A stretch of 64,000 bases of DNA, taken from positions 15,140,452 through 15,204,451 of the forward strand of contig NC_049988.1 in the NCBI RefSeq assembly GCF_000003815.2, written 5' to 3'. The notes beneath the pieces were generated by a model. That model ran no database searches and was not told where the DNA came from. It worked only from the letters and a program-made list of their open reading frames with translations. Positions 22,975-64,000 of the stretch are shown here, piece after piece. The position numbers and the translations under genes are program-made. Source of the DNA: Branchiostoma floridae. Lineage: Eukaryota; Chordata; Leptocardii; Amphioxiformes; Branchiostomatidae. The first letter of the stretch is position 1, and each line of letters opens with the position of its first letter.

Positions 22975-24543
22975 ATTTGAAAATCAGTCATTTTCTCTCT
23001 ATTACCTATTTCTGTGTTGTTTTTTGTATTTTCCCATACACTATATAGCAAGTGTGACTCACTCAGAATCTAGTCATTGCTTTTCAATCGTTCTGGGTTG
23101 ACACAAGTTGGAAAAAAATAGAAATAGAAATGCATCACTTAACATTGGAGATGTCTTACATTTTACTCCACCCTTTTTAAAGCCCTAGGACATTTACAAG
23201 ACATGGTAGGTCGTCGTTTCTACGGGACGGTCCCGTCGACATTTTAGGCTAAAATGAAGACAAACGATAGGCAAATAAAATCTATTTATTCATATCTTCA
23301 ATTTATCTCTTGTCAGTCAAGTCACACAGAAAATGGAGACACAAGAATGGCTAGTGAATAAAAGAGTCGCCGAGCAACTTTGTCATGAACATTTGAACTC
23401 CAGTGTGTGTGTTTGAAGGTGGATTCTTCGAACCGGTTTGCTGAGAGTACACAGTATTAGCATATACGCGTTAATAGCAACATACAATATAACAGTAACG
23501 TTATAATTGCTATTAGATAGCTATAGTGGTCAAACAGCACCACCTATCGGATTCAATGTGCAACGTACAGATCAAGGGAGTTATAACTAGCCCGAAGTAT
23601 GCAGAAGATCTACATGTACACTCCCTCCTTACGTCGGGTAACGTGTTGCAATAATCATAGTCGACAAAAACAGTGGTAGAAAAAAGACACCAGCCATTAC
23701 CACGATGTCATCATGCGGACAACTTTGGTATACCACAAGAGCATTGAATATGCATAAGTGAATGAGTCATACGTATAAGGTGACCTTTCGGGACAAGTTG
23801 AAACAAAGGGTTGGTGTTCTACCCTCAGGGGCAGTTTCCCAATAACAAAGCTGAACCCATGACTAATATACATGTATTGATCATCCCACACAATAATGAA
23901 TAAGCTGGTACTTCATAAATTTCCAAACCCATGGGTAGGTGTGAAACATTGCCTTTCTTTTATAATCAAGTTCAACAAGACCCTTAATGTTATACCTAAA
24001 TCGTCAAGCACAAGAATCGTTATCTGAACATGTAATGCGAAGTATATTCTATGTTCATTTTAGATATGCACACGTTGGGTGTGGCAAGTGTTGGGGGCCA
24101 GCGTAGGCGAAATAGCAGTTATACTGGCTACACAAATACAGAAACAGTTACAAATGCATAGTCCTTGGGGAACTAAAAAATTAGATCTCAGCATGATGAA
24201 TGGTACACCTGTCGTATTATCACATGTCAAATTAGAGATGTGAACATAATTTGGGAAGCAATTTGAACATCTCTAAAGGGAACCATATATGTACATGGTT
24301 CCTATTAGTAACGTTAAATGTCACGAAGTTTGCCAGCAACTTCCGGGGCTTCCGTATTTTGAAAACATTGCAGGTGAGACACATATTCCAAAAACTACTT
24401 TGGTTTCAATGATAAATATATGGACACAAAGGACGCACTGAATGATATAAGATCTAAATATAGATGCCGTGTGTTGCACTGACAAGACTATTTGGAGGTA
24501 CATCGATCAAGCACAAGTCATTTTCACGTGGAAGTGGGTCAGG
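22975..24543 (+). other. Spacer between RTK copies 2 and 3 (A-type promoter)
   Basis: The first part resembles the 3' flanks of the other copies (AATAAA at 23274-23279). The distal part shares CCCATGACTAATATACATGT with the region upstream of copy 1 and diverges from the B-type spacers. TAACGTTA octamers lie at 23496 and 24309. An in-frame upstream ATG at 24469 would extend copy 3 by 25 residues and is judged not to be the start. Confidence 0.6.
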
Positions 24544-27384
24544 ATGGCGACATGTCTGTTCGTATGCGTCTTTCCCCTGTTTCTGTTTATGTTTCAAGAT
24601 CTTTGTACCGCCGTAGAAGGACGAACGGCGTGGAATCTCACTCGGAATTTCACCGTTTTGGAGGACTCCTCGCCTGGTACGGTCGTGGGGATGATTTTGC
24701 CGCCATCTTGTTCGCCAAGGGGGAATCGACGAAGGGCCAAGATTACAACAGGTGATCCATACCGACGTTTTCGCATTGTCAACTCGAGCTGTGAAGCCGC
24801 TATAGTCGTGAACAACCCACTGGATCGTTTGATCCAGGCTCGGTACGACTTGATCGTAAGTTTGTCAGTTAAGAATGACTCATATTTCTTTACCAAGTAT
24901 ATCGAAGTGACTGTGACAGTTACAGATGTGGTAGACTACCCTCCGTTTTATAACATGGAGTGCGAGACCAATATCCGTAGGAACACTAACCATGAACGCT
25001 TCTTGCTAACTTTAAAGGGAAGGGCTACCTTCGACTCGCACACGGGAGGGCCAATAAAATTCAACTCTACCTCGTTGAGGCCAGATTCTATTTCAGAACT
25101 TTACCTCAGGGCGGACAGCAAGAATTGCCAAGTGTTATTGGGAGTGGGTGCACATCATTTGACAGACGTTGGCATTGCCCATACTATCTATAACAATAGA
25201 TTCAGGTCTACAACATGTACCAAACGAGATAATTCTGAGGTTTCCCTTAAAGTACACTTGATCAAAAAGCCTGACCTAGTAGTACAGTCCATTCCCATTT
25301 GGAACGATGCCAACGAAATACCACCAGTTTATGTGACACCGGACGTTGTACCAGCATGGGAAGCGAAACCTAAATCTCACTATTTCCTATTTCTGTACAT
25401 TCCACTCTCAGCAAGGGGACCGGTAAACCTTACCTGTGATCTTCGACACATAAGAACACACAGATGGTTTGGAATTCACGCTGTTTCTTCTTTAAGCTTG
25501 GAACTGGAGATCTTAGGATGCGAGGAAGGCAAGTTTGGACCTCTGTGTGACCAGGACTGTATGTGTAAGAACGGAGCACGCTGCCATGGGTTAAACGGGG
25601 CCTGCAAGTGCACCCCAGGATGGCAAGGTGTCGCTTGTGACATCCCAAAACCAACAGTGGCAATAAAAATGTCGTCCAAAGTCCAGGACAGCATTGCTTA
25701 CATTGGAAGTACCGTGTCGCTTTCGTGTATGACATTCCACCTAAACATAATTCAAGTTCAATGGGACTTCAAATCGTTTTTAAACCATCCAAACAAAACG
25801 AATATCTTGTCAGAGACAAACAACACAGTGATCAACATAGGGTCTGTTTCCCCTGATAACAATGGGAATTACACATGCACCGTCGTATCAGAAAATGGAC
25901 AAACATTTCGGGATAGCTTCGTGTTGAATGTGACAGAGTGTCCACCGAATAGAAGAGGCGTCTACTGCAACAAAACGTGTGGCTGTCTGCAAGGGGCTGC
26001 CTGCGACCGCTGGGCCGGCTGCGAATGTCCATCGGGGTGGAAGGGCGAGCACTGCGAGCTCAGGTGCCCCGATGGAACTTACGGGAAAGGCTGCGTTCAC
26101 AAATGTGACTGTGAAAACACAAAAATATGTCACCATGTCACGGGACAGTGTATCTGCGTGGGGAGGACGGGGGCTAACTGCGAAGAGCCCTGCCCTTGGG
26201 GAAAGTACGGCCCGGGATGTGAGAGATCTTGCGAATGCAGAAGAAACGTTTCTTGTGACGTCATGACTGGAAGATGCCACTGTGAGCAGGCCGGTTTGGC
26301 AGGAGAGTTCTGTGAGTTAGAGAAGTCCGGTGGCGACGTTTATACAGTCCGAAACGTCATCATCGCATTAAGTATTGTTGTCACCTTCTTCGCCGTATGC
26401 CTCACCAAACAAACATGTTGGCAGAGACTCAAGAAGCATGATTTTGAAGATGACGAACTGGTGACACACGACTTTAATCAGCGTCTACTCAGCTGGGAGA
26501 AAGATCCCCGGATGTTGGACCTAGCAGAGATGATAGGACAAGGAAAGTTCGGGCATGTTTTGCGAGGAAAGCTTAGCAATCCTGACGGAAGCGTGTTGCA
26601 AGTTGCGGCTAAAACGGTTCACCAAAACGACTCACAAGCTCACCGAGCCTTCTGTCACGAGATGAACGTCATGGTCACCATACATGAGGGCTTGGAGAAT
26701 CCAGTTCGCTGCTCAAATATCGCGAGACTTCACGGCATCATAACGCAGTCAGAACCGAAGTATATTCTTTTTGAGTACGCAGAGAGAGGGGACTTATTGT
26801 CTGCTCTGCGACAGTCGCGAAATGGCGATGCTTGTCAGAACTTCTGGCGACTTGCCATGGACGTTGCTCGAGCACTCCTCTTTCTCCAAGAGCTCAAGCT
26901 TGTGCACCGAGACGTCGCAGCTCGCAACGTTCTCATCTCGGCCGACGGTGTCGGTAAGCTTGCTGACTTTGGACTCTCACGTGACATTTACACTGATTCA
27001 GTCTACATGCACAGAGACAACCCGGGACAGTCGAACCATCTACCACTGAAGTGGATGGCGTTGGAATCATTGAGGGATGGAGAATTCACCCACAAGAGTG
27101 ACGTGTGGTCATATGGAGTACTTCTATGGGAGATTGCCACGATGGGAAACGAACCAGTGTACCCTGGTCCTCTCAGACCTGACTGCCACCATCTCATCAA
27201 TGTGTTGGAGGAGGGACATCGTCTGCAGCTCCCCCGTGGCTGCAGTATGAACATGTACCGCCTGATGGGGAGATGTTGGAGCGCCGATCATGATCGGAGA
27301 CCAGAGCCTCATAATTTGATCAAGTCTGTCCAACTCTACGGCAACGTAAAAGAAGAGTGGGCGGAGAAAGAAACTACAGTATGA
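24544..27384 (+). CDS. Receptor tyrosine kinase, array copy 3 (type A)
   Basis: This is a single-exon ORF of 946 aa, started at the ATG aligned across the array (GTGGGTCAGGATGGC). The signal peptide is diverged (MATCLFVCVFPLFLFMFQD). The type A unique segment reads GRATFDSHTGGPIKFNS and QSIPIWNDANEIPP. The stretch before the first EGF module differs from all other copies (HRWFGIHAVSSLSLELEILG instead of a YDFFGIQVES-type text), so this may be the most diverged ligand-facing surface. The kinase is intact: GQGKFG, VAAK (K690), HRDVAARN, DFG. Local changes include HEMNVMVTIHEG in helix C. The tail keeps YGNV and ends KETTV. The expected poly(A) position is degenerate (AATAGA near 27682). Confidence 0.95.
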   Translation: MATCLFVCVFPLFLFMFQDLCTAVEGRTAWNLTRNFTVLEDSSPGTVVGMILPPSCSPRGNRRRAKITTGDPYRRFRIVNSSCEAAIVVNNPLDRLIQARYDLIVSLSVKNDSYFFTKYIEVTVTVTDVVDYPPFYNMECETNIRRNTNHERFLLTLKGRATFDSHTGGPIKFNSTSLRPDSISELYLRADSKNCQVLLGVGAHHLTDVGIAHTIYNNRFRSTTCTKRDNSEVSLKVHLIKKPDLVVQSIPIWNDANEIPPVYVTPDVVPAWEAKPKSHYFLFLYIPLSARGPVNLTCDLRHIRTHRWFGIHAVSSLSLELEILGCEEGKFGPLCDQDCMCKNGARCHGLNGACKCTPGWQGVACDIPKPTVAIKMSSKVQDSIAYIGSTVSLSCMTFHLNIIQVQWDFKSFLNHPNKTNILSETNNTVINIGSVSPDNNGNYTCTVVSENGQTFRDSFVLNVTECPPNRRGVYCNKTCGCLQGAACDRWAGCECPSGWKGEHCELRCPDGTYGKGCVHKCDCENTKICHHVTGQCICVGRTGANCEEPCPWGKYGPGCERSCECRRNVSCDVMTGRCHCEQAGLAGEFCELEKSGGDVYTVRNVIIALSIVVTFFAVCLTKQTCWQRLKKHDFEDDELVTHDFNQRLLSWEKDPRMLDLAEMIGQGKFGHVLRGKLSNPDGSVLQVAAKTVHQNDSQAHRAFCHEMNVMVTIHEGLENPVRCSNIARLHGIITQSEPKYILFEYAERGDLLSALRQSRNGDACQNFWRLAMDVARALLFLQELKLVHRDVAARNVLISADGVGKLADFGLSRDIYTDSVYMHRDNPGQSNHLPLKWMALESLRDGEFTHKSDVWSYGVLLWEIATMGNEPVYPGPLRPDCHHLINVLEEGHRLQLPRGCSMNMYRLMGRCWSADHDRRPEPHNLIKSVQLYGNVKEEWAEKETTV

Positions 27385-28939
27385 GATTGAAAATCAGTCA
27401 TTTTCTCTTTATTACCTATTTCTGTGTTGTTTTTTGTATTTTCCCATACGCTATAGCAAGTGTGACTCACTCAGAATCTAGTCATTGCTTTTCAATCGTT
27501 CTGGGTTGACACAAGTTAGAAAAAAATACAAATAGAAATGCATCACTTTACATTGGAGATGTCTTACATTTTACTCCACCCTTTTTAAAGCCCTACGACA
27601 TTTACAAGACATGGTAGGTCGTCGTTTCTACTGGACGGTCCCGTCGACATTTTAGGCAAAAATGAAAACAAACGATAGGCAAATAGAATTTATTTAGTCA
27701 TATCTTCTACTTATGTCTTGGCAATTAAGTCATACAGAAAATGGAGACGCAGGAATGACTAGCGAATAAAAGAGTCGCCGAGCAACTTTGTCATGAACAT
27801 TTGAACTCCAGTTTGTGTGTTTGAAGGTGGATTCTTCGAACCGGTTTGCTGAGGTTATGGTCCTAGCTGAGAGTAAACAGTGTTAGCATATATACGTCTT
27901 ATCAGCAACAAACAATATAACAGTATAGTTGCTATTAGCTAGATAGTGGACAAACAGCACCACCTATCGGATTCAATATGTAAATACAGATAAAGGGAGT
28001 TATAACTAGACCGAGGTAAGCAAAGAAGATCTACATGACTTGCACACTCCCTCCTCACGTCGGGTAACGTGTTGCAATATTTATAGTAGACATAAACAGT
28101 GGTAGAAAACAAACGCCAGTCATTACCGCAATGTCACCATGCTGACAACTTTGGTATACCACAAGAGCATTCAATGTGCGTAAGTGAATGAGTCATATGT
28201 GGAAGGTGACCTTTAGGGACAAGTTGAAACAAAGGGTTGATGTACTTCCCCTCAGGGGCAGTTTCGCAACAATACAGTGAAACCCGTGACCAAGATATTG
28301 ATGACCCCACACAATAATAAGAAAGCAAACACTTAATTAGTTTAGAAACTTACATCTATAGGTTTGAAACGTTATACGTTACTCGTAAAGCAGACGAATC
28401 AATATTTGAATACATAATTTGAAGTATGTCCTATAGTCCTATGATACGTGCAAAGGTTGGGTGTGATCGCTATTAGGGGTTATGCGGATGGGCAGTTCTA
28501 CCGACTATAGTCTGAACAAAAGCAATGCACCTGTATAGAGACAAATGCATAGTCCTTCGAGATGGCTAAGGGATTAGATTTGAGCATGATTGATGCTAAA
28601 GCTGTCGTTTGTCAAATTAGTGATGCCTTAATATTCACTGGAAAGCAATGATTATCAATTCAGTAATCAGTAAGACTGGAGCTGTATTTACATGGTTTCT
28701 ATTTGTATACATGTCGTGAAATCTGACTGTAACTTCCTTTTTTTCTGACTTTCGCAAACTTTGCATATGGGGCACACATTCCACGCACTACTCAGGTTTC
28801 AATGATACGTGTTTACGAACACTTAGATCGCATTGAATTACATAAGATCTAAACATAGAAATCAATTGTTGCACAAACACAGACATCGATCAAGCACTCT
28901 CAAGTCATTTTCCCTCGGAGCTCCAGGGAGTGGGTCAGG
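27385..28939 (+). other. Spacer between RTK copies 3 and 4 (B-type promoter)
   Basis: This is nearly identical to the 18602-20160 spacer over its distal half, apart from a deletion of about 45 bp near 28370 (before GTTATACGTTACTCG). That similarity supports duplication of a two-gene A-B unit. No independent gene is seen. Confidence 0.6.
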
Positions 28940-31759
28940 ATGGCTACATCTCTGCTCGTCATTCTACTGATTCCGTTTATGTTTCAAGACTTTTCCACTG
29001 TCGTAGAAGGACTGAATCTCACTCGGAATTTCACCGTTTCGGAGGACTCCTCTCCTGGTACGGTCGCGGGGGTGCTTTTGTCGCCATCTTGTTTGTCCAC
29101 GGAAGGACGAAAGACCAAGATTACAGCAGGTGATCCATACCGACGTTTTCGCATTGTCAACTCGAGCTGTGAAGCTGCTCTAGTCGTGAACAGCCCGCTG
29201 GATTGTTCAATCCAGGCCCGATACACCCTAGTCGTCAGTTTGTCAGTTGAGAACGACTCGTATCACTTCACCGAGTATATCGAAGTGATTGTGACAGTTA
29301 CCGATGTGGTAGACTACCCTCCGTTTTATAACATGGCGTGCGAGACCCCTGTTCGAAGGAAAACTGACCGTGGACGCTTCTTGCTATTTGTAAATGGACG
29401 GGCTACGTATACCCTCGACCCTTTCTCAGGAAGGACTTTGTATTTGAACTCTACATCATTAAAGGAAAATTCTATTTCAGAATTTTACCTCAGAGTGGAC
29501 AGTAAAAATTGCCAAGTGTTGTTGGGTATGGGTATACATCATTTGACAGACGCTGGCATTGTCCATACTATTTATAACAATGGACTCCGGTCTACAACCT
29601 GTACAAAACAAGACGATTCTGAGGTTTCCCTTGAAGTGTACTTGATAAAAAAGCCTGACCTATTGCATCCAGTTCCACATTGGACCACTGAGGACTACAT
29701 GCCACCAGCTAAGGTATCGCCGGAAGTTTTGCCGGCATGGGAAGCGAAACCTATAGCTCGTTATTTCCTCTTTCTGTACATTCCTCTTTCAAGAACGGGA
29801 ACAGCGAACCTAACATGTGATCTTAGAAACATCGAGTCTTACGACTTTTTTGGCATTCAAGTTGAATCCGTAGAGTTGGAACTGGAGACCGTAGGATGCG
29901 AGGAAGGCAAGTTTGGACCTCTGTGTGACCAAGACTGTAGGTGTAAGAACGGAGCACGCTGCCACGGGTTAAACGGAGCTTGCAAATGCACCCCAGGATG
30001 GCAAGGTGTCGCTTGTGACATACCAAAGCCAACAGTGGCAATAAAAATGTCGTCCAAAGTCCCAGGCAACATTGCTTACATTGGGAGTACAGTGTCGCTT
30101 TCGTGTATGACATTCCACCTTAACATTATTCAAGTTCAATGGGACTTTAAATCTTTTTTAAACCGTCAAAACAAAACGAATATCTTGTCAAGGACAAACA
30201 ACACCGTGATCAACATAGGGTCTGTTTCCCCTGATAACAATGGGAATTACACATGCACCGTCGTATCAGAAGACGGAGAGACCTTTCGGGATAGCTTCGT
30301 GCTGAATGCGACTGAGTGTCCACCGAATAGAAGAGGCATCTACTGCAACCAAACGTGTGACTGCCTGCAAGGGGCTGCGTGCGACCGCTGGACCGGCTGC
30401 AAATGTCTGTCGGGGTGGGAGGGCGAGCACTGCGACCTGAGGTGCCCCTATGGAACTTACGGTAAAGGCTGTGTTCACAAATGTGACTGTGAAAACACTG
30501 CAACCTGTCACCATGTCACGGGACAGTGTGTCTGCGTGGAAAGGACGGGGGCCAACTGCGAAGAACCCTGCCCTTGGGGACAGTACGGCCCGGGATGTGA
30601 GAGATCTTGCGAATGCAGAAGCAACGTTTCCTGCGACGTCATGACCGGAAGATGCCACTGCGAGCAGGCCGGTTTGGCGGGAGAGTTCTGTGAGTTAGAG
30701 AAATCCGGTGACAACGTTTATACAGTTCGGAACGTCATCATCGCATTGAGCATTCTTCTCACCTTCTTCGTCGTATGCCTCGCCAGACAAACATGTTGGC
30801 AGAGACTCAAGAAGCTCGAGTTTGAAGATGACGAGCTGATCACGGGCGACTTTGAACAGCGGCTACTCGGCTGGGAGAAAGATCCCCGGATGTTGGACCT
30901 GGCAGAGATGATAGGACAGGGGAAGTTCGGACATGTTTTACGAGGACAGCTTAGTAATCCTGACGGAAGCGTGTTGCAAGTTGCGGCTAACACGGTTCAC
31001 CAAAACGACGCACAAGCTCACCGAGCTTTCAGTCACGAAATGGCCATTATGATCACCATACAGGAGGGCTTGGAGAATCCAGTTCGCCGCTCAAATATCG
31101 TGAGACTTCACGGCATCATAACACAGTCAGAACCGAAGTATATTCTTTTTGAGTACGCAGAGAGAGGGGACTTATTATCTGCTTTGCGACAGTCGCGAAA
31201 TGGCGATGCTCGTCAGAACTTCTGGCGACTTGCCGTAGACGTTGCTCGAGCACTCCTCTATCTCCAGGAGCTGAAGCTTGTGCATCGAGACGTCGCAGCT
31301 CGCAACGTTCTCATCTCGGCCGACGGTGTCGGGAAACTTGCTGACTTTGGACTCTCACGTGACATTTACACTGATTCCGTCTACATGCACAGAGACAACC
31401 CGGGACAGTCAAACCAGCTACCACTGAAGTGGATGGCCTTGGAATCATTGAGGGATGGAGAATTCACCCACAAGAGTGACGTGTGGTCATATGGAGTGCT
31501 TCTATGGGAGATTGCCACGATGGGAAATGAACCCGTGTACCCTGGTCCTCTCAGACCTGACTGTCACCATCTCGTCAATGTGTTGGAGGAAGGACATCGT
31601 CTGCAGCTCCCTCGTGGCTGTAGTATGAACATGTACCGCCTGATGGTGAGATGTTGGAGCGCCGACCATGATTGGAGGCCAGAGCCTCAGGATTTGATCA
31701 AGTCTGTCCAACTCTACGGCAACGTACAGGAGTGGGTGGAGAAAGAAACTACAGTATGA
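28940..31759 (+). CDS. Predicted pseudokinase receptor, array copy 4 (type B ectodomain)
   Basis: This is a single-exon ORF of 939 aa with the same architecture as copies 1-3. The N-terminal 300 residues are nearly identical to copy 2 (type B). The Ig region (PTVAIKMSSKVPGNIAY, HLNIIQVQWDFKSFLNRQ) matches the A copies instead, so the gene looks mosaic. The lysine that anchors ATP phosphates is replaced: VAAK reads VAAN at residue 684 (codon AAC at 30989-30991, AAA in the other three). The glycine loop, HRDVAARN and DFG remain. Other private changes are R for C in NPVRRSN, Q for H in SNQLPLKW, and W in DHDWRPE. The tail has one residue fewer but keeps YGNV and TTV. The reading frame is intact, so it is probably expressed as a weak or dead kinase that could act as a decoy or heterodimer partner. 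A sequencing error or allele is not excluded. Confidence 0.93.
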   Translation: MATSLLVILLIPFMFQDFSTVVEGLNLTRNFTVSEDSSPGTVAGVLLSPSCLSTEGRKTKITAGDPYRRFRIVNSSCEAALVVNSPLDCSIQARYTLVVSLSVENDSYHFTEYIEVIVTVTDVVDYPPFYNMACETPVRRKTDRGRFLLFVNGRATYTLDPFSGRTLYLNSTSLKENSISEFYLRVDSKNCQVLLGMGIHHLTDAGIVHTIYNNGLRSTTCTKQDDSEVSLEVYLIKKPDLLHPVPHWTTEDYMPPAKVSPEVLPAWEAKPIARYFLFLYIPLSRTGTANLTCDLRNIESYDFFGIQVESVELELETVGCEEGKFGPLCDQDCRCKNGARCHGLNGACKCTPGWQGVACDIPKPTVAIKMSSKVPGNIAYIGSTVSLSCMTFHLNIIQVQWDFKSFLNRQNKTNILSRTNNTVINIGSVSPDNNGNYTCTVVSEDGETFRDSFVLNATECPPNRRGIYCNQTCDCLQGAACDRWTGCKCLSGWEGEHCDLRCPYGTYGKGCVHKCDCENTATCHHVTGQCVCVERTGANCEEPCPWGQYGPGCERSCECRSNVSCDVMTGRCHCEQAGLAGEFCELEKSGDNVYTVRNVIIALSILLTFFVVCLARQTCWQRLKKLEFEDDELITGDFEQRLLGWEKDPRMLDLAEMIGQGKFGHVLRGQLSNPDGSVLQVAANTVHQNDAQAHRAFSHEMAIMITIQEGLENPVRRSNIVRLHGIITQSEPKYILFEYAERGDLLSALRQSRNGDARQNFWRLAVDVARALLYLQELKLVHRDVAARNVLISADGVGKLADFGLSRDIYTDSVYMHRDNPGQSNQLPLKWMALESLRDGEFTHKSDVWSYGVLLWEIATMGNEPVYPGPLRPDCHHLVNVLEEGHRLQLPRGCSMNMYRLMVRCWSADHDWRPEPQDLIKSVQLYGNVQEWVEKETTV

Positions 31760-32529: not shown

Positions 32530-35500
32530 TTACAGAATAATTTCTCCGTTTCTGTGTGACAGTTCATCTGAGGTATTGCTGTCCGGTGTACTAACTGCGG
32601 TTACAACTTCACCATTATAAGCCATGGTGCAAGATTGTCTGTTATCTGTAGGTTTGTAGAGCCACAATGCGAAGCCCATACATGTTGTGGAGAAAAACTT
32701 AAGCACTACAACGATGATGAAGAAGTAGAGGCTCATGGTGGAATTTTCGTAGACCCAGCATGCACCGCGGTCGCTTACGTCACATGTGTCGTTCCTGGTG
32801 ACGTCACCTTGCCACAGAAGACAGGTTCTGTCAATGGCGGCTCCCATTAGGATGGGTCCAGGTACGGAACCTGCAACATGCAGAAAAGTTTAAGAGTAAG
32901 CCAAAATTCCTTTAGATATGTAGCATGAATTTTCTGAAAACATTTATCAATGTTCCTAGACTTAACATTGTATTGATTTATTTGGTGATTGGTTGTAAGG
33001 TGTATTGAATTAAAGAGGGATTAAGTCTTCGATTTATTATAAGGAATTTGAATGAAGGAGAACGTAAGGGACTACTTACCAAGAAGTCTAATGAACATCC
33101 ATTGGAGACCGAATGCAAAGGACGCCTGGTGTTCAGGAACACATCTGAAACATACAGCATGTAAGTGCTTCTTCTTCTGTAATGTATATAATTGTACCGA
33201 GTAAATATGTTTATCTCGTCAATGCATTACGGACTGTAGTCCATTTTCTAAATCTTTTCAGAATATCCCTTATGTCATCTAATGAATTATGTGTTATACA
33301 TTTGTCCATACTGGGCATCACTGGTATATAACAAGGGGCTTGGAATAATTGTTTTGTTTTTTTTACAATTATGACCAACAACAAGGGACATTAAGATATA
33401 TACCTGAGTGTAACGGCAGCAGCTGGCACAGTCAGACCTGCAACGACCACCATCACGACGACCAGGAGCGGAAGGAACACCATGAGGAGACCACAGGTGG
33501 AACCACAACGGCCTGACGTCACTTCCGGTTGGGTGTACCCAGGAGACACCGCGGTGACAATAGTTGAGGTAGAAGAGTTTGTTGTCACACATGCACAACC
33601 ACTGAACGTCTGGAAAAAGATACGTAGAGTGATATGATTAAGATTTGGAGCAAACATGTTACAACTGCAACATCATTGTCCTATGATGAATTTTCTATAT
33701 GCTGTGTTTGAGAAAAATCGCCCCTGTGTCTAAATACAAGACACCATTTGACAAGAAAAGTCTATTAAAATGAAGGGAATCAGTTATTATTTCAGATCAT
33801 CAAAGTTTATACATTGACATATTTCACTTTGTAACAAGTGCTATTTCGAGGAGTCAAAATAAGCATCATTTCACAGGTAGGCACTGAAAAAGAATAGCAA
33901 ACATACATATATGTCCGACTGCACAGCCGCAGCAAAATTGACCTTCGTCTCCTAGTGAATCTACCTACCAAATATCATGAAGGTCCATCTACAACTCCAG
34001 TTATACAAACATACATCCAAAACCATAAATTAGGTAAAGACAGTAGCTGTCGTACGAATTCGGGTACCTTCGGTTCTCCTTCGTGACTTGTCGTGCACCC
34101 GGCGTGACACGACGACAGGTACTCCACCCCGTCTGTCCCGCACACGACATCAAACACGGCTGGGCATGCGCAGTTAGCGTTACAGGTGGCGTTCAGGGAC
34201 GAACCGGACCCCATCGTCTGTGATGTTGCTCTGAGGAAATGTGTTTTAGATCTGGTTGAGAAATTTGGGATTTTCTAAAAGCATATTTGAGGGAAGGACA
34301 ACTGAAGGAAGAAAAATATAGAAAAAAAAATAAATATTTCACAAAAGCTTCCAAATAGTGATAAATTTCTTGCGCAACAAGTGTACCAGGTAAATGCATG
34401 ACATCTACTGATACATAACTACAGTTCTAGGCTAATCTAATTAATAGTGAAAGAGAGGCTACTACTATTCTTCAAGCAGATGTTAGGCTCCGACTGTCGT
34501 TTTAGTGTCTATCGGGCTTCCTGTTTTAAACAAGAAAGAAAACGGTACAAACTAGAAGGCCGAAAAAAACAGCCGAAGCATAACCTCTGGTTGGAGAGAA
34601 GGAGAGAACGGTAAAAAGCAAAAAATGACAACGAAATAAGTAAGATACATGAAGGTAAGAAAGATACTTTTTAGATAAACAAAACACATGGTTTAAAAGC
34701 TATTTTTCAAAACTCACCCGCTAGGATAAGACGTTGTCACCCCTGCAAAATGGCTGTTTGGACATCTGATGAGAAAGACGGGTGACAGAAGCAGCGCTAC
34801 AGTCGACAGAATGACGCAGAGCTTCAGTGATCCGGACACTCCGAGTTTCTTCCATCGCATGATTCCTCCACCGATCAGACAACCTCCAAACGCACCGGGA
34901 ACCATGACACATCCTGTGAAAAGAAAAAAGGTACACAATTGAAGAACGAAAATCAACATATATAGACGACTATTGATATAAAGTATGATATTGTAGCAGA
35001 TGTGATTTTTATCCCATCAAAAATGTCTGCCTTGATTAGAAATGGAAAGAAAGAAGACAAATATAAGAACACAATATAAATCACTATCAGTTGATGCTTA
35101 CCCACGAGAAATGCGGCCTGGCTCGCTGTTTGTCCGAACTGGTTCTCTACAAACTTCGGTAAGAATGTAGCGAATCCGTTCAGCACGAGACCCTCGCTGA
35201 TTCCCGCGAGAGTTATGAAAATGAACGTTGGATTCTTGGCCAATGAGAGTACGGCGATGGGAAAGTCCCGGATGCTCTTGCCGAAGCTTGAATCCAAGGT
35301 TTTGGACTCTGTGTTGGCGTGGACGTCAGATTTCTTCTCTTTGCGTACTTTGGCGATGCCTACAGCAATAATGGATGGAGAAAGGTATGTCAATTGTCAC
35401 ATTACATACTGATATAACAATAGTATGCTTCTATAAAAACAAAAAAACGCAAACAAATGCTGTATTTCTTACAAAGTCTCACCATTTCTTTACTGCTCCA

Positions 35501-38429
35501 GAGTTCACCTGACCATGACCTTGTTATCAATAGTAAACTTTCCGATGCAATACAAGATTATGTGAAACAAAGGATTCATATCCAGCTGTGCCTAGTCTTA
35601 CATTCTTAGCTTATCATGCATACGCTCCAGCTGCAATTGATTTTAAATGTATTAACTATTTCATTCTACTGATATTTGTTCAATTTTGCATGTAACGTTA
35701 TGTATGTATGTGGTCACAATATCAGCCTGCTGCCTATGTGTCCACATTGTATTGCTTATGTCGCAATTTGAATGAAGTGAAAGTTGTATTTCTTACCGGG
35801 CAGTTCCTTTGGGTACCCAGATAAAGGTAACACCAACAGCCAAGCAACGACCCCTAGCGCCAGGAAGCCGAGCCACCAGGCGCCCAACCAACGTGGGTCA
35901 CTCGTTCCACCAACAGGCCTACGTAAATGGAAACATTTGTCAAAACAGGTTATTGATTATAATAGGTGTGGTTATTAGAACAATAGTATTCAAGTTACTG
36001 TAGTTAAGAGGAGATCACGTGGGACGGTGGCCCGCACACGGCAAATGAACTTTGCCTCAACACTTATGGACAGTAGACCATAAAAGATAGACAAATCTGA
36101 ACTTCAAGTCAATTCTTTCCTAAGCACACAATGCCAGCGTTTTGTCTACCATCGGCAGTCCAGCTGTTAATGCTGTACGAATTGAAAGTTGACATGAATA
36201 AAATCAATGATAATAAACATATGTTTATTAGGTTAACAAAATGTCATGTAAACATAGAAGTTTACAGTTTGTTCACGCTTTTGAACTTACGCGGTGACCC
36301 CGGACTTGTCCATGTCGATGTAGAGAGTCAAGAGCTGTCCGCCGAGCAGAAAACCGACGGCAGGGCCCAGGTAGGACACGGCGTAGAAAATCCCTATTGA
36401 AAAAAAAATCAGCAAATGATTTTCATCTATATTTTTTCTTCGTACGTACATTCAAAGCAATACCTGGGAAAGAAGTCGAGAAATGAGGTAAAATGTAAGA
36501 AGAACGGCGAGAAGAGTAAAAGAAAATTATGAATGAAAAGTATATTTAGAAAGAAAGAAAGAAACGAGTGCAGATGGTTGACAGTGCATCAATTGACAAT
36601 GGTCCACCGAAATACCGGAGAACAACGAAAACACAGGAAAACACACGAAGGAGGGTCAAACCTACAAAAATACAGCATGCTTTGATGATCATGGTGGTAA
36701 AAAACACAGGAAAAGCACCAAATTGCATAATAGATTACTTACCCAAGTACATCCCAGATGACTTTGTGGAGACGCTCTGTTCCAGGTACTGGGGACCAAA
36801 GGTGTAGAGAGGGATGCCGCCTACTCCATTCAACAGCTGGCCTGAGGACGAAAACCACAAAAATTGTTAAACAGGTAACTTTTACCGTGTGCTACTCGAT
36901 TTGTTTTTACCATTGTTTGTGTCTTACATATTGATGACAATGGACTGCAAAATTGATGATTGCAAAAAGATTTTCATTGGTCACTTCTACATACATGAAA
37001 TGAAGTACTAGACTAAGTATACCACTCGGTCACTTTGTCAAAGAATACTGAGTGCAACGGCAGCAATTGCATCGCTTGCTCATGTGCAAACGTAAACTTA
37101 CCAAGAATAAAGACATAGAGGAAGTTAGGGAGCCAGCTCGATGCTCCGCCTTCCTCACTGCACAAGCCATCTCCAGTCTCGTTAAATCTCGCTGCACCAG
37201 TCTCGTTTAATCTCGCGGTGCCACACGTGGTTTCCCACGTCCCTCCCAGCTCGTGCGGCCCCACCACGAAGTGCGGGATGGAGAAGACGAAAGCCCCGAG
37301 CCCCATCACGAACACCCCGATAGCCAGCCATACGGGCTTGCTTCGGACGCCGCCGTGGTAGGTGATGATCACCGACAAACAGCCGAAAGCGATGTCGTAA
37401 CCGGACGAAATGATTCCTGGAGTCAGAAAAAAAGAGATACAAATCAATGCTAAATATGAGCACACAATGTAAGATTTACCAATAAGATACTAATTGTATC
37501 AAAGTATAGTAGGCCAACGGCTGCCCGCTGGCCACTGACCCTCTTTGGCCCGCTATACTCCTTGGGCAATGCTTTGATAGTATCTTAAGTCACTGGTAAA
37601 TAAATCTGGAGATTACACACGAAGAGCACATAATTGTCTATTCTTTACGAGCTGTGAGATAAGCTTGTTTCAGATAGGTTCATTGGAATTTGATTACAAT
37701 TGATTTCTACTTGACTATGTTCCGAATACGTGTATAGCAAACAGAAGTAGACAGACAGACGGAAAGTCGTTTCCTAACGGATATAAGAAACCTGCCTCGA
37801 ACAGAGTGTGACAGAAGACTGTTATTGTTTGTCTAGACTCTTAAGTTCCTGTGGTGACTTAAACTTGAACTTCGTCTTGAAAAAAGCCTATTTTGTCAAA
37901 ACAATTTTACAACAAAAAGCATAAGCAATTCTAGAATTAGAAGTCCACCATTCTACAACACAAACATAACAGCCATGATGACCATATACATAAACAGAAT
38001 TTTAATCATGATAATGCCATTTTACCAATTCTGTAACTAACCTGTTTTGGAGCTTGGAAGTTGGAACCTTTTCTCGATGGTCGATATGACGCTGTTGATC
38101 AGCCCGTTTACCAGCGTCCCTTGCACCAACGCGAATAATGACACAAAGAAAAGAAATCCTTTCGGGTTGTTCAACAGCTGAAGGCAAGACGGTCTAAACC
38201 GGCTCCATCCACATCTGGTCTCGACTTGGTCTTCTTCGTCATCCGAGAAGTCGCCGACTCTTGAGTCTTCCCGGATAAAGTTTCTAAGAAACGGTGCATC
38301 ACTCCTTGCGCCAGGTGTGTCTAAGGCGCTGTCCTGGCGACTGTATCTCCCAGGGATAGAGTGGTCGAACGCGATGGGGTCAAGGGTTAATGCCTTCGAG
38401 TTCTTTGTTTTCTTTCCGAATGCCGCCAT
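32530..38429 (-). CDS. SLCO4A1-like: SLCO4-like organic anion transporter (OATP), 11 coding exons
   Basis: The coding exons on the minus strand are 38042-38429, 37102-37416, 36743-36841, 36291-36393, 35797-35918, 35102-35359, 34718-34913, 34068-34230, 33404-33609, 33080-33144 and 32530-32870. Every intron is GT-AG and the phases join into a 751-aa protein, near the usual OATP length. OATPs are plasma-membrane carriers that exchange amphipathic organic anions such as thyroid hormones, prostanoids and conjugates. The family signature DPRWLGAWWLGFL is at residues 309-321. The extracellular Kazal-like Cys domain is about 505-560 (CNANCACP, VCGTDG, SSCHAGC). Many membrane helices and a GQLLNGVGGIPLYT segment are present. 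CGWSRFRPSCLQ near the N-terminus and the C-terminal CLLWQ with ENSTMS resemble SLCO4A1. The start ATG is in the Kozak-like AAGATGGCGGC. Confidence 0.93.
37509..37610 (+). repeat. Dispersed ~100-bp repeat, copy in SLCO intron 1
   Basis: The pattern TTTGGCC-GC-TA-ACTCCTT, CTTTGATA-TATCTTA, CACTGGTAAAT is shared with 52399-52520 in the same orientation. It lies in the first coding intron of the SLCO gene. The family is not recognised. Confidence 0.6.
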
Positions 38430-38469
38430 CTTGGAAGTTGAGTCAAGGACACTCCTTTTGCTTTATACG
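38430..38469 (-). other. Probable 5' UTR end of SLCO gene, preceded by an acceptor
   Basis: On the minus strand, TTCCATCCTTTGTTTACAG lies directly upstream of CGTATAAAG, a good polypyrimidine tract and acceptor 40 bp before the ATG. An untranslated upstream exon is therefore likely, but its position is not identified. Confidence 0.4.
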
Positions 38470-45068: not shown

Positions 45069-47761
45069 TTACACATCACTTTCCCGAACAGTTTCAAAGC
45101 GGAAAACATCCACAGGACACTCTCTAACTGGTGGGGAATGCAAACCCGACAGAATGGCACAATGGCAAGGCCCTTTACACACACACGTCGTGCCGCACAC
45201 GTTGCCCTCGGGGAGGAAGGCGTCGGCCAGGTAGCTGTTGACGAACATGCCGGTCGGATCGTGTTTCAGGCGTTCCTCCACGAAGTCGGTAAACTTCGGG
45301 AAACATCGGCCACGCTGTCGTGCCGACATGTAGGTCTGCTTGCCCCAGTGAGGGCGTCCGCCGTACTTGTCAATCAAGATATCTGGAGGAGAGAAAACAG
45401 AGACTGTTTACAACAATAATACTTTATTGTATATATGACTGTGTTTTCAACAATTTTTCATCATTTGAAACAGCATACTAACAGGATAAGCTGGTAAAGA
45501 TCTGAGTAAATATTATGATGCCTTTTTTTTTACATTTTTCAGAAGAATAATCAATCATAATTATAGAAGTCTTTGGTTCAATATAGTAATGAAGGACCAT
45601 AAATTAACAATCCACATTTGATTCGTAATACTACATAACAAATTATTCCTATTACATTGAAATAGCAGCATACTAGTATTTCACATCAACAGAGCAGCTT
45701 CCCCTCAGCTAGAAGAATTGCCTTTATCTTGCTTTACAAGTTTACAGATTAAACCGTCTGCATGTATTCTGCAATGATTCTAAACATGTTTGCAAAACGT
45801 ACTTTGCGTCAGTAAGAAGAACCTCCTGTAAGCTGTCCCCTCGTCGTAGGCGTTTAGTGAGATCCACATGAAGTCTGGTCGCCACTCTTCGCCTTTTGGT
45901 CTTTCTGGTAATCTGGAGAAGTAAAAGCTTGGAATGATTCAATTTTCTCAAACTCTATTGAAGTACAGTGCTGCGTGCATTTAGATTTATCAACAATTTT
46001 GCACATACTACAAACAAATGAACACACAAATGAACTATCATAATGGTAGTAGATGGTTTTCAATCCCACATATTACATTTGGATAAGGCCTTTTGTCTGT
46101 CTATTTCAACTCAACTTATGGCTTTATTAGTTTCCTTTACAATTACAAGTTTGCCACGAGTCAGAAATGTTAATTGGCTGATTGTCGCAGCTGCATACTT
46201 TCTAGTCTCTAGCATTTGTAAATCAAAACATAAGTTTGTTACTAGTACTTGCAGTTTGTCACTGAACTAGTACTTGCAATTGCATATTGTAAGTAGTAAA
46301 AAAAAAAAGAGTTTTGAATTTCCTGCTACAAACCATATCATCATTTGTACTAAATGCATGTAGACTTACTTCTGCAGGTAGAGCGGACTGAGGTAGCTGG
46401 TCTCTCCCCGAGAGAAGCGAACCTCGATGATCTGGTTACACATGTACGGCTCCTGCCAGTTTCTGGCCTCCTCAATAAGGTCTTTGATCTGTAATTCAAA
46501 ACAGTTGAATGTGTTATCATATAGGCATGTAAACGTTAGATATAATGATAGCATAACTCCAGATGTATTGTTTATCCAATTGTAACACTATATGTACATA
46601 TATGTAATGATACTTAGCCTTTATTAGTATTCCATGTAACACAATCGAAATGCTGCATTTAGCTCATATGCAAAGATCATCACTACATCTTCCAAAGCAA
46701 GTTATACTAGGCACTATAATTTTGGACGCCATTTTCTAAATTCTAAAAGCATAACAATTTGAATCCAGCTTCAAGTTCAGTACATTTTCACATGAGTCCT
46801 ACATACTCAATCATAAAGTACGCAATATACAAGTGTGTAGTGTATATTTCACTGCATAACACCTTGATATCAGTTGATATCTAAAACAAAGCAAGGGTTA
46901 ATGCTACAAAATGTGCTCTTGTCGTTGTTAACTGTTTAGTTTGTGTACCTCTTGAAACGCCTCCTTGCACCTCTCGTACGGTATGGCAATCTCGATCTCC
47001 GAGAACCTCTCGAGCCTGACGTTCCCAGACTGCACCAGGGTGGTGGGACCGGAAATAGGAGTGGAGTCAAGAAACAGGGTCTGAAACTTCATTGTCCACG
47101 GCTGGAATAAAAAGGTTGCTTTTGTCACAAAAATTGTCACGAATTCGATTCTGGGCCGCCATTTTGAAAAGTGCTCTCGCGAGAATCTAAAGGAAGGTAT
47201 TCGATCTTGCACTAAAGCGAGGCCAAAGGAGGATCAGGTTAGATCTTTAGAGCCTTTGACCCGTTCAGGACAGGTGACATATGCTTTGGTTCATTCCGAT
47301 TTGAGAAGTGCGTAATATATTTTTTTCAGTTGCATGTTCTAGTAAATAAGTTATTATGAGAAAGCCAAATAGACATTATTAGAAAACCAAATTGACATTA
47401 CATTCGGGCAAATCCTTGTCTTTGTTCCTATCATGTCAGTTCACAAATGGATATCGATATGGAATTTGATAAAATTACCATTCAATTACTTTGGAGGAAG
47501 AATGTAATCTCAAGGAAGTGATCCTCGCTCACCGTCATACTAGTGAAGTAGTTGGCGAACCGGTGGACGGCCAGGAGGACGAAGTTCTCCACATACCACG
47601 TCGTGAAGGTGCTGAACTTGTTGGGCTCCACACAGTCATCGTTCGGGTCGTCGTTTTCTTTACAATAACATCTGAAGGAATGTACATGGCATTGTTGTTA
47701 TATGCACTTTAAACAGACTAGCAGATGTTTGTATGAATGTCTGTATGTATGTATGTATGTT

Positions 47762-47819
<58 letters not shown>

Positions 47820-50566
47820 AACATACATACATATGTATATATATATATATATATATATAGGGGTATACAATCGGTCTAAACCATAGACATACATCGTTGA
47901 TTCAGCATGTAACGCCAGCTCACCTTTATTCGCTGGGTAACTTATATCCGTTGCTTTTAAAAACGTGGTATTTGGGGATATCACATCGACGGACGTTGGT
48001 TTTAAATTGCAATATTTTCAGTACATTGCAGCTTAAAACTACCACCCGTCGACTTGATGTGCCTAAATGCACTGTTTTGAAAAACAACGGATATAGGTTA
48101 CCCCGTGGATAAAGGTGAACTAGCGTTACGTAGTGTACGAGTTAGTGTCGAGTAAGTCGAATATCTTAAATGGGGGTAAAATGTTTTCTGTTCAATGGCA
48201 ACCACATTAGACACAAATACATAGTACCTGTGGGCAGGTTTTGTAAAAAGAATAACATACAACAAAATTGTAATTCTAATGTCTCTAAAGCAAGTGTGTA
48301 TTATTCTAAATGATTCAAGAGTTTCCTGATCTAAATGGTTGTCGGATAAATCTTACCTGTGACTAGATACCGTCTGACACTTGTCTGTGTGTGGAAAGTA
48401 GAAGAACTCGAAATGTTCGTTGTCCCTCAGTTTCGTCTCCAGCTCGCCCAACACCTCATCCATGACCCGACCCCGTCTTATCTGAAATATTCAAAACATG
48501 AAATAACTCAGTCTCAGATATCATATCAGACAAAATAAATTTCATTGTAAGTTTCAACCCTAAATATCAAAACAGAAAAAACTCAATCCTTGAAACACAT
48601 TCTTGTTTTTTTAACAAATGCTGATTTCGTCTTCGTTTAACATTCGAGAATACCGCATTCTACACCTTGAATAATTTCCTATAGACTTGTTCAACTTAGT
48701 AAGGAAGACATGTAGAGCTAGATAGCATTGGAGTTTGCGAAGGAAGCTCTTTTACCTTCTTGATGTGATAGTTTTGCACGCAGCGAAGCGTAACTTCTGT
48801 GACGACACCGAACACACCAAGGTGCACGCGCACCGCATCCAACAGTCTCGGGTCTTCCTGTGTCACCTGCAGATAGCATGGAAATGTTAATTGTTGAATC
48901 CAACGTTTACCTATAAATGTAACCAAAACTGTGAAAACAAGTGTAGTAAATTTCTGTCAGACAGATTTCTGCTCACAATTCTAACCCTTCCGCCCAAGTC
49001 AAACTAGTGCTGTTTCTTTCATTCTGGTAACCTGCAATTAAAAGTCTGAGCTCTACCTTGTCTCCAAGGACGGTTCAATCTATATAATGTAATATTCTGC
49101 ACCAATCATCGTGCAGGCTTTATTTCTCAACTGGTATGAAAATGACTTGAAAGCCAAAGAAAGGGGATTGCTTTAAATACTAACTAAGCCAAATTACTGT
49201 TCCATACCATAACACATTCCTAAAGAATAGATAAAACAAGAATATGCAAATAAACTGATCTTCTACCAATGTCTTTCCATACAAATGCCAACATGCCCCC
49301 CTCCCTCCATCTGACAAAAAGGCATAAACTGACCTTCAAAATCTCCCCATCTGCCTTGATGATCTCCAAGCCGATGACGTAGTTGGAGATGGAGGGGAAC
49401 CTGCCGCCCGACCCGTGGCTGCCAGTAGCGATGATTCCCGCCACGCTCTGTTCGTTGATGTCCCCTGCTATCGGCAGGCAGACGTCGTACTTCTCAGCCA
49501 ACTCCTCGAAAAACTCCTTCAAGTACTTCCCCGCCTGGACGGTGACGTCGTAGCACTGGTCTCCTTCCGGCGTGAAGCAGTTATGGACTTTTGTGACGGA
49601 AATGATTTCCTTCATCTTGTGTAAACTAACGAGGTAACCGCTTGTTGTCAAGATGGAGTCATCGCTGTGACCAGATCCGATGATGCGCACCTTCTGTCCT
49701 TCGCCACCCGCCTTTTTTACAATCCTGATGACTTCTTCTTTGTTTGCAGGTGCCAGCATACATTTCGCTCCAAACTTGACCCCCTTCCAGTTCTCATAGT
49801 AGCCCCTCTCGTGTGTGTATCCACCTTCTACGTCTTGCCTGTGGTTTTGGGCGCTCAGAAGTTTGTACCCAGGAAGCAGCAATCGACCATCCACCGTGTG
49901 GCCGTTGTGCTCGCTGTCGTCTGCAGGCACTGGTTCGTACACAAAATCGATCGGACGAAGGTGGCGGTACCCGAACTCAACATAGTACCGTAGAAAGGAC
50001 CACAACGTGGTCATGAAGATGAAGGCGTACTTGATCTTGAAGATCACAACTTCCCCCACTGTTAATGACCCGAACTTGCCCTGATTGATGCCATAGATCT
50101 CGATAGTGGCTGGAATGAAGATGACTTTCTGAAAGTACAACAGAAACTTGTTGTTGTCATGAAACCTCGTGGCTTCGGCTAGGATCGTCACAATGTACAT
50201 GGACCACGTGATGATCTCCACGATACCATGGATAAGCACGTGAGCCAGATGAGTCTGATTTTGCACCCTGTACACGAGGTTTAGAACAAACTCGATAATA
50301 GCGCTCAACAGGACGATTGCGGCAAAGACGATCTTCCAAAAATGGCGCAAATATGGCGGCTGTGAGTAGGACGCCCTTCTGAAGACTTTGATAGAGCGAT
50401 GGATGCAGTAGCCTAAGACTGGCACGTACACGAGGTTATACAGGAGAACGTTTACAAGGCAAGGCGTGAGGAGGCCACCAGGCTGGGTAGGCCCCCATCC
50501 AACCGGACTGCAGAATCCTGGGATTCCTGTGACGTCATCACTGGTGTTGCTGATGTTGTCGGCCAT
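45069..50566 (-). CDS. Membrane-anchored FAD aldonolactone oxidase with ABCC TMD0-like N-terminus
   Basis: The coding exons on the minus strand are 49334-50566, 48756-48866, 48357-48481, 47533-47671, 46949-47101, 46370-46488, 45803-45912 and 45069-45382. Phases join into 767 aa. Residues 1-205 hold about five membrane helices (35-55, 74-99, 110-132, 140-158, 172-195). The opening (FCSPVGW, then CLVN, VPVL) resembles the TMD0 domain of ABCC/MRP transporters, but no ATP-binding cassette follows. Residues 255-450 are an FAD-binding fold with GSGHS (H300, the position of the covalent flavin histidine in gulonolactone oxidase), VTVQAG and ATGSHGSGG. The remainder is an aldonolactone-oxidase domain with GGRPHWGK at 671-678. 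Enzymes of this family oxidise aldono-lactones, as in the last step of vitamin C synthesis. The substrate here is unknown, and a cytosolic catalytic face is inferred. The C-terminus ESDV fits a class I PDZ ligand. Confidence 0.88.
47765..47859. repeat. (AT)n microsatellite in an oxidase intron
   Basis: This is a nearly pure TA run of about 50 bp, then a short CATACATA interruption, then another TA run to 47859. It lies in the intron between coding exons 47533-47671 and 48357-48481, next to a foldback element. Length polymorphism is likely. Confidence 0.95.
47909..48129. mobile_element. Foldback MITE, 221 bp, long inverted arms
   Basis: Almost the whole element is an inverted repeat with arms of about 105 bp. 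The left arm begins GTAACGCCAGCTCACCTTTA. The right arm, read on the minus strand, begins GTAACGCTAGTTCACCTTTA. Both continue through GGGTAAC-TATATCCGTTG, a TCGACGG segment and TTTTAA-TGCAAT. There is no ORF. It sits within an intron of the oxidase gene. Confidence 0.8.
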
Positions 50567-51333
50567 TTTGTCCCTGAAACAGAGGAAACAAAAAAGTTAC
50601 TCTTTGGTGCCAATATTGGTACAACTGTTTAACTATTGCAACCATAAGACGTATTGGCCTTTATTATTGACCAGTGACACTTTGAGGGATTTTTATAGAC
50701 ATACCGCAATACTCTGTAGCCCCCTCTTCACGTGCGATGCCAGCATATATCAAAGGGCAACATGACATACTCTAGCCAAGTGCTATTTAAGGACATTCAT
50801 TCTACCCGTCGGGAACAGGGAACCCACTGGTCACACATAGCTCTAATTCCGATACAACGTAACGCAGATCGGAAACATAGATTGAGAGGCGTTTGACAGA
50901 TTGCCTCTTATGCATGTGTCTCTAATAGCAGGAACAATCTACAACTGTCACACCTCTTACAGAATGGACTAATTTTGTAGAGAGAAATATGGACGAATGA
51001 CTGGTCTTGTGAGTATAATTTGATTTATGATAATTTGTCGCATTGCAGATTCAAAAGCCTGACGACAACTCGCATTTGTTCGAGCAGGTTCGAACAAAGA
51101 CACGCAGGTTGTTCATTTTATCTAATATCTTTTCCCATGTTTATTGAGAACCTGTAAAAAAGGAACATGTGCTTATAGTACTATACGGCGAGATCGCTAC
51201 AACATTTTGTTGCCTCAGATCTATCTGACAACTAAAAACAAGCCATAACCTATATAGCATAGCCCTGGGGCACACATACTGTGGTGGCCACCCTTTCTTA
51301 TCAAAGTCTCTCTCGTGAATTCCATGACATCAG
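50567..51333. other. 5' UTR edge and upstream intron of the oxidase gene
   Basis: On the minus strand, CTCTGTTTCAG at 50574-50584 is a good acceptor just before GGACAAAATGG, so the start codon lies near the beginning of its exon and an untranslated exon lies upstream. The rest of the stretch shows no coding. Confidence 0.45.
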
Positions 51334-63329: not shown

Positions 63330-63925
63330 ACTGATAATAACAATCTTTATTGACAACGACAAAAGTACAGCGACTTTCGTAAGGTCTACATGAATAACAA
63401 CTACTTACAGTACAACTAAACACATATATATGGATATCTAACGTTATAGGTATGGATACATCAACATAAAGGGTCTAGCATGTCATTTACACTATTGGTT
63501 CTACGGTATAAACAATCGTGAATATATTTGCCTACTTGTACACAATGTGGATTTTCGCCTCCCAGAATGTACTTGAATTTATTTATCGAACAGAGAGTAG
63601 CAAAGTCTTTAGAGCGAGCGGAAAGTAATGTGAACAGCTCTGTGCGTTTGTCATCATATAGAGAACAATCCATAACAAAGTGACGTTCGTCTTCGATCTC
63701 ATTTGGGCAGAATGGACAAAACCTCTGGTCACGGGGAATTTTAGAATATCTTCCGGCTTCTATATTTAGATATGCTTCGAGATATCTAAAAAAATATTTT
63801 AACTTGTGTTGAATATGATGTGAAACACGTAGAGCCCAACTCTTGGTTATTTTTAGCTCTTTTGGAACAGGCACAAGACTTCTGTCACTTGCCAACCCCC
63901 TTAGAATAAACAGGAGCAGCGCAAG
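63330..63925 (-). mobile_element. LINE 3' end: C-terminal fragment of a non-LTR reverse transcriptase
   Basis: The minus-strand frame stays open for about 155 codons and ends with a stop at 63461-63463. It encodes the zinc-knuckle-like C-terminal region typical of LINE ORF2 proteins: YLNIEAGRYSKIPRDQRF, then CPFCPNEIEDERHFVMDC (a C-x2-C, H, C arrangement), then LYDDKRTELF. There is no ATG at the left of the frame and an in-frame stop occurs further upstream (near 63935), so it is a 5'-truncated or broken copy. Downstream, on the minus strand, an AATAAAG-containing 3' UTR reaches about 63330. The remaining 70 bp to the window edge may belong to the same element. Confidence 0.78.
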
Positions 63926-64000
63926 TCTACCTCACCTCATAAATTCCCATGTCCAAATAAACTGTTACGACAAAAGCAACAATCAGCCATGTCAACTATT

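Follow-up and report, generated by a model that had tools for sequence, protein, structure and literature searches.

The question raised by this locus is whether TMD0, a part of ABC transporters to which sorting and partner binding have been ascribed, has been joined to a sugar-lactone oxidase within one animal protein. The window analyzed here is the whole stretch of 64,000 nucleotides from Branchiostoma floridae (NC_049988.1, positions 15,140,452 to 15,204,451 of the forward strand), and all positions below refer to it unless another contig is named. The gene in question, referred to as the fusion gene, lies on the minus strand from 50566 to 45069. The computed results are a single open spliced frame, a match to the TMD0_ABC profile, oxidase domains whose flavin and active-site motifs are intact, and a separate gene resembling that of gulonolactone oxidase (GULO) elsewhere in the genome. 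With a probability of roughly two in three, we interpret the locus as a real animal gene for an integral-membrane flavoenzyme, in which a TMD0-type anchor and sorter would precede a cytosol-facing, aldonolactone-oxidase-like enzyme that would pass electrons to O2.

Gene Model and Coding Evidence

The gene model comprised eight coding exons (Table 1) with a coding sequence of 2304 bases, which specifies 767 amino acids and whose stop codon ends at 45069. All seven introns began with GT and ended with AG, and the spliced frame was open through 767 codons to the stop; the exon junctions were picked by reading the genomic sequence. The membrane part and most of the flavin adenine dinucleotide (FAD) fold were found within exon 1, with no intron between them, and this exon lies inside a stop-free frame of 458 codons. 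The initial annotation had placed both parts in one exon of 1233 bp, and splicing confirmed this exon, its coordinates, and the protein length. Two simple splice patterns were scanned for inside exon 1 and gave no match. A splice-acceptor-like sequence stands directly before the start codon, so an extra 5' exon, coding or non-coding, is possible upstream.

In the read frame, the membrane part had a codon score of +0.11 and the oxidase part one of +0.24, while the maximum among 300 non-coding pieces was -0.118. These scores were trained on four kinase open reading frames (ORFs) of the window. The non-coding pieces were charged 3 units per stop, and one of the antisense frames of exon 1 reached +0.057 as well; thus the codon scores are used as supporting evidence only. 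In the 513-Mb assembly (513,431,437 bases in 431 contigs), exon 1 gave one full match, and the sole other match, on contig C236 (E 2.5e-4), was a different FAD gene of the family.

If the locus were an artefact of annotation or assembly, the frame would represent the read-through of two neighbouring genes, or a decayed gene. Fusion artefacts have been reported in helminth annotations (in the accessible part of PMC12964723), and the present model comes from genomic sequence alone. However, neither an intron nor a stop separates the two parts, both carry a coding signal, the splice sites are GT..AG, and the join falls inside one exon rather than at a predicted splice. We consider an artefact very improbable. 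Genes of composite origin have been described in arthropods, where 104 genes consist of fused host and transferred pieces, according to the accessible part of PMC13389597.

The N-Terminal Membrane Domain

Hydropathy analysis revealed five hydrophobic stretches in the N-terminus, the fourth of which was weak (one window over 1.3). The TMD0_ABC profile scored 31.9 bits when residues 1-200 were scanned and 27.9 bits on the whole protein, above the curated Pfam cut-off of 27; as yardsticks, human MRP1 scored 39.7 bits and ABCB6 of the same genome 35.4 bits. Nine shuffles, in which every helix and loop retained its own composition, all failed to match. We further compared the fusion with a joint ABCB6 and ABCC profile (two rows each of MRP1, ABCC of this genome, and ABCB6). 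The fusion scored 22.3 bits, a value reached by none of 300 shuffles (maximum 12.3), and the hhalign probability was 77.7. In a five-row TMD0 alignment, four residues were invariant, two of which were the cysteines C19 and C36. In the ABCB6 TMD0, Cys8 and Cys26 have been described as disulfide-linked and Asn6 as N-glycosylated (accessible sections of PMC11143254). Scanned against Pfam over its full 767 residues, with matches listed up to an E of 10, the protein showed neither the transmembrane core nor the nucleotide-binding domain of an ABC transporter. These results suggested that the N-terminus belongs to the TMD0 group, while the pairwise comparison and gene structure described below lean towards ABCB6 as the subfamily, and the TMD0-like character named in the initial annotation was borne out.

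Several observations speak against this assignment. A phmmer search of the PDB with the N-terminal membrane part found no ABC protein. An ABCB6-only profile gave 1.3 bits on the fusion, with 81 of 297 shuffles as high and an hhalign probability of 1.5, and an ABCC-only profile gave -3.0 bits, with 234 of 300 shuffles as high and an hhalign probability of 3.1. The identity to the aligned TMD0s of MRP1 and ABCB6 was only 15-20%. Profile similarity to TMD0 was found with Pfam TMD0_ABC and the joint profile, and with neither of the two subfamily profiles. Such misses by single-query and subfamily-profile searches, the low identity, and an MRP1 pairwise score no better than shuffles are what would be seen if the N-terminus were an unrelated five-helix anchor, similar to TMD0 by convergence or profile noise, on a simply membrane-anchored flavoenzyme. 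This explanation is countered by the passing of the Pfam cut-off, by the absence of any shuffle as high (0/9 for TMD0_ABC, 0/300 for the joint profile, and 0/500 for the ABCB6 pairwise comparison), and by the cysteine pair common to the fusion, ABCB6, and MRP1, and we regard it as unlikely. A TMD0-type module is the reading that we carry forward.

ABCB6 or ABCC as the Closer Relative

The pairwise comparison covered two single relatives only, ABCB6 of the same genome and human MRP1. Against the ABCB6 TMD0, the fusion reached a local z of 4.35 and a global z of 6.87, with none of 500 shuffles as high. Against MRP1, z was 1.0 (local) and 0.3 (global), with 77 and 151 of 500 shuffles as high, respectively. 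The ABCB6 TMD0 of this genome (L009) lies in one open frame, followed downstream by frames that read as ABC-core-like, and the TMD0 of the fusion likewise lies within one exon. In contrast, each of the four ABCC stretches examined had its TMD0 divided among four or more exons, interrupted near MRP1 residues 75, 118, and 163; the ABCC gene pieces of this genome showed 34-68% identity to human MRP1. The fusion thus shares with long ABCC transporters (MRP1 being the one tested) the TMD0_ABC profile, a GFCS start, and two cysteines, but it differs in exon structure and pairwise score, and it lacks their ABC core. With ABCB6, it shares the same profile, the N-terminal cysteine pair, the single open frame, and the better of the two pairwise scores, while it differs in having no ABC core behind the module. 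It also differs in the profile PF16185 (mitochondrial ABC-transporter N-terminal five transmembrane region), which gave 199 bits on this genome's ABCB6 and was not among the fusion matches listed at E up to 10.

Neither the specifically ABCC resemblance named in the initial annotation nor an ABCC-specific origin is favoured by the MRP1 pairwise score, the ABCC-only profile, or the exon structure. The leaning towards ABCB6 is not to be pushed, because the small ABCB6-only and ABCC-only profiles both miss the fusion. A profile built from the fusion and ABCB6 found ABCB6 in the PDB at 46 bits, compared with 52 bits for ABCB6 alone, and was uninformative for the fusion. Two genomic loci scored above the TMD0_ABC cut-off, ABCB6 and the fusion gene, both on contig C10 and 10.9 Mb apart. 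This is not a count of TMD0 genes, because the search ran exon by exon and the split ABCC domains fall short (two at 18.8 and 18.7 bits). A weak match to the membrane part on contig C4 (E 0.25) seems to be a chance hit; the exons around it read as those of an RNA helicase gene.

The Oxidase Part

The remainder of the protein matched the Pfam domains FAD_binding_4 (75.8 bits) and ALO (135.9 bits), which places it in the aldonolactone oxidoreductase family, as the initial annotation had held. The closest solved relative was the A113G variant of an ancestral galactonolactone dehydrogenase (E 2.2e-33). The GHS, ExR, HWxK, and oxygen-marker motifs were all present, as IGSGHS, EVR, HWGK, and Gly. 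We take the His of IGSGHS to be the counterpart of the His that binds FAD covalently in GULO. In the accessible part of PMC9602106, Table 1 lists the set GHS, HWGK, ExR, and G in its M. tuberculosis and B. bacterium rows. The Pseudomonas row of the same table has HWGK but A at the marker, and HWAK is given for mouse GULO, yeast ALO, and cyanobacterial and Asgard entries.

The NCBIfam models tell against a straightforward assignment. The best of the eight matches listed, TIGR01679 (bact_FAD_ox), scored 230.1 bits, below its cut-off of 292.25, and TIGR01678 (sugar 1,4-lactone oxidase) scored 216.7 bits, below its cut-off of 396.8. With both lactone-oxidase models below their curated cut-offs, the profiles do not assign a substrate.

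Relation to GULO and Ancestry

A GULO-like gene separate from the fusion was found on contig C2, with the motif KPHWAK. Its joined pieces scored 276 with TIGR01678 versus 188 with TIGR01679, while a joined piece of the fusion scored 145 versus 162. The fusion shares with animal GULO the flavoprotein family, GHS, and ExR, but it carries HWGK at residues 675-678 instead of HWAK and has a TMD0 in front. According to the accessible part of PMC6582580 (Henriques et al. 2019), animal sequences with HWGK were set aside as other FAD genes, outside animal GULO. The fusion resembles these in both respects. The accessible part of section 5 of that paper names no N-terminal membrane domain for them, the word "transmembrane" occurs 0 times in its main text, and the annotations concerned were without start codons.

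One might suppose that the fusion is the animal's gulonolactone oxidase, anchored in the membrane and making vitamin C, a link that the initial annotation had considered. The ALO and FAD_binding_4 domains and the GHS, ExR, and Gly markers agree with this idea, and resurrected GULO enzymes needed detergent and were termed membrane-associated (accessible part of PMC11099136). In addition, the identity of the fusion to the C2 gene (30.2% over 285 columns) was not below that to bacterial relatives (27.3-31.1% over 424-430 columns). Against it stand the separate HWAK gene, the opposite order of the two TIGR scores in the two genes, the best NCBIfam match being a bacterial model below its cut-off, and the position of HWGK sequences outside animal GULO in PMC6582580, as far as accessible. 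Given the separate C2 gene and the HWGK motif, GULO orthology and the vitamin C link are not supported, and a vitamin C-producing role appears quite improbable. An oxidase distinct from the GULO-like gene is retained in our interpretation.

The identity to the dehydrogenase was 30.8%. By plain identity, the fusion is thus about equally far from the C2 gene, the bacteria, and the dehydrogenase, which favours no one ancestry for the oxidase. Among prokaryote contigs, 39 pattern matches were obtained; six of them (L003-L008) proved to be related to the oxidase part, and the titles of all six are actinobacterial; among viral contigs searched with exon 1, none of eight pattern matches was confirmed as a relative. 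The actinobacterial proteins, oxidoreductases of the TIGR01679 type, share with the fusion HWGK, GHS, and a DNEHFEFF stretch. Their open frames span 444-513 codons between stops, which leaves no room for a TMD0 ahead of the enzyme, and the fusion, which lies below the model's cut-off, differs further in its Cys-rich insertions and tail. In a tree of 10 rows, with the GULO, C3 gene, and dehydrogenase rows partial, the six bacterial rows grouped with the fusion and the ancestral dehydrogenase, apart from GULO, at only 81/81, and long branches meet there. Because of this weak grouping and the long branches, we claim no gene transfer.

Two further sites of the genome hold ALO-family genes. At about 20.98 Mb of contig C3 (L025 and L026), a neighbouring pair has HCGA in one gene and HWGA in the other at the HWxK motif; judging from the motifs, these are possibly altered enzymes. 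The gene at C236:145500-155400 (L029) has AHWAK and a flavin motif, GVGYSW, in which His is replaced by Tyr.

Topology and C-Terminal Tail

With helix limits set by hand, the sequons N4, N7, and N103 fell in or at segments predicted to lie outside. The counts of Lys plus Arg were 0, 0, and 1 in the outside segments and 4, 2, and 4 in the inside segments. From the five helices together with this sequon and charge pattern, we infer that the catalytic part would face the cytosol. A fourth sequon, N724, is at odds with this orientation, as it lies in the part placed in the cytosol and would go unused. Six cysteines fall within 27 residues of the tail (726-752), a region beyond the point where the six bacterial relatives stop, and metal binding or lipidation is conceivable there.

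Feature Coordinates and Neighbouring Sequence

Table 1. Positions of the fusion gene features in the window.
Feature	Position	Strand	Remarks
Splice-acceptor-like sequence	50574..50597	-	Pyrimidine tract that ends in CAG, directly before start codon; read by eye
Coding exon 1	49334..50566	-	1233 bp, residues 1-411: TMD0-like domain, linker, most of FAD-binding fold
Cys19	50510..50512	-	Aligns with first TMD0 cysteine of ABCB6 and MRP1
TMD0_ABC (PF24357) match	50117..50506	-	Residues 21-150; five predicted helices reach about residue 198
Cys36	50459..50461	-	Aligns with second TMD0 cysteine of ABCB6 and MRP1
IGSGHS flavin motif	49664..49681	-	Residues 296-301; sequence and motif table of PMC9602106
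Gly368	49463..49465	-	Aligns with the site of A113G in galactonolactone dehydrogenase; G marker of oxygen reactivity
Coding exon 2	48756..48866	-	Spliced model
Coding exon 3	48357..48481	-	Spliced model
Coding exon 4	47533..47671	-	Spliced model
Coding exon 5	46949..47101	-	Spliced model
Coding exon 6	46370..46488	-	Contains EVR (ExR) pair at 46425-46417
Coding exon 7	45803..45912	-	Spliced model
Coding exon 8 and stop	45069..45382	-	HWGK (45350-45339); Cys-rich tail residues 726-738 (45197-45159)

Coding exons 3 and 4 are separated by an intron with a long TA-rich microsatellite (47760-47860). Frames of an OATP (SLCO) organic-anion transporter (32530-38462, minus strand) adjoin the fusion gene on the same strand. 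Four ORFs lie in tandem on the plus strand at 15716-31759; each is a single frame of about 960-980 codons and matches tyrosine kinase and immunoglobulin domains. By reading, these ORFs also contain Cys-rich EGF-like stretches and a membrane span, and they form an apparently intronless array of receptor tyrosine kinases. An ORF at 63461-63931 (minus strand) with a CPFC...H motif looks like the end of a non-LTR (long terminal repeat) retrotransposon; Pfam gave nothing for it with an E of 0.001 or below.

Proposed Function and Significance

Membrane sorting, topology, substrate, O2 use, and covalent FAD are the parts of the proposal that we infer. The five-helix module, of the type heading ABCB6 and long ABCC transporters, would anchor and probably sort the protein, so that the FAD_binding_4 and ALO catalytic domain would be held at either an endomembrane or the plasma membrane, on its cytosolic side. 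By analogy with transporter TMD0s, we propose that the enzyme would sit on an endomembrane and that its active site would be cytosolic; this membrane would be endolysosomal if the module behaves like the TMD0 of ABCB6. The catalytic part may oxidize a sugar lactone or a related polyol, and with its oxidase-type Gly it would pass the electrons to O2. Two considerations count against the proposal as a whole: the gene is known here from the DNA of one genome, and the sorting step is drawn by analogy only.

The initial annotation had regarded the layout as unreported. No fusion of TMD0 to a lactone oxidase was found in the open-licence PMC literature, covered partly by title and abstract start, which agrees with that view; a search of this scope is no proof of novelty. 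In the accessible part of the cited literature, TMD0 is said to lack homology with all other proteins. As a tentative idea, to which we give somewhat worse than even odds, TMD0 may have left the ABC family when a flavin oxidase of the bacterial HWGK type took up the first exon of an ABCB6-like gene, which would have yielded a sorted, cytosol-facing, membrane-bound sugar oxidase beside an ordinary GULO. If true, the gene would be a natural test of TMD0 as a portable sorting module. A TMD0 ahead of an enzyme would show that the unit is portable and would offer a clean test of its action alone. The oxidase family would moreover gain a member placed on a membrane; according to the accessible part of PMC6582580, the HWGK branch of this family in animals had been left aside there.

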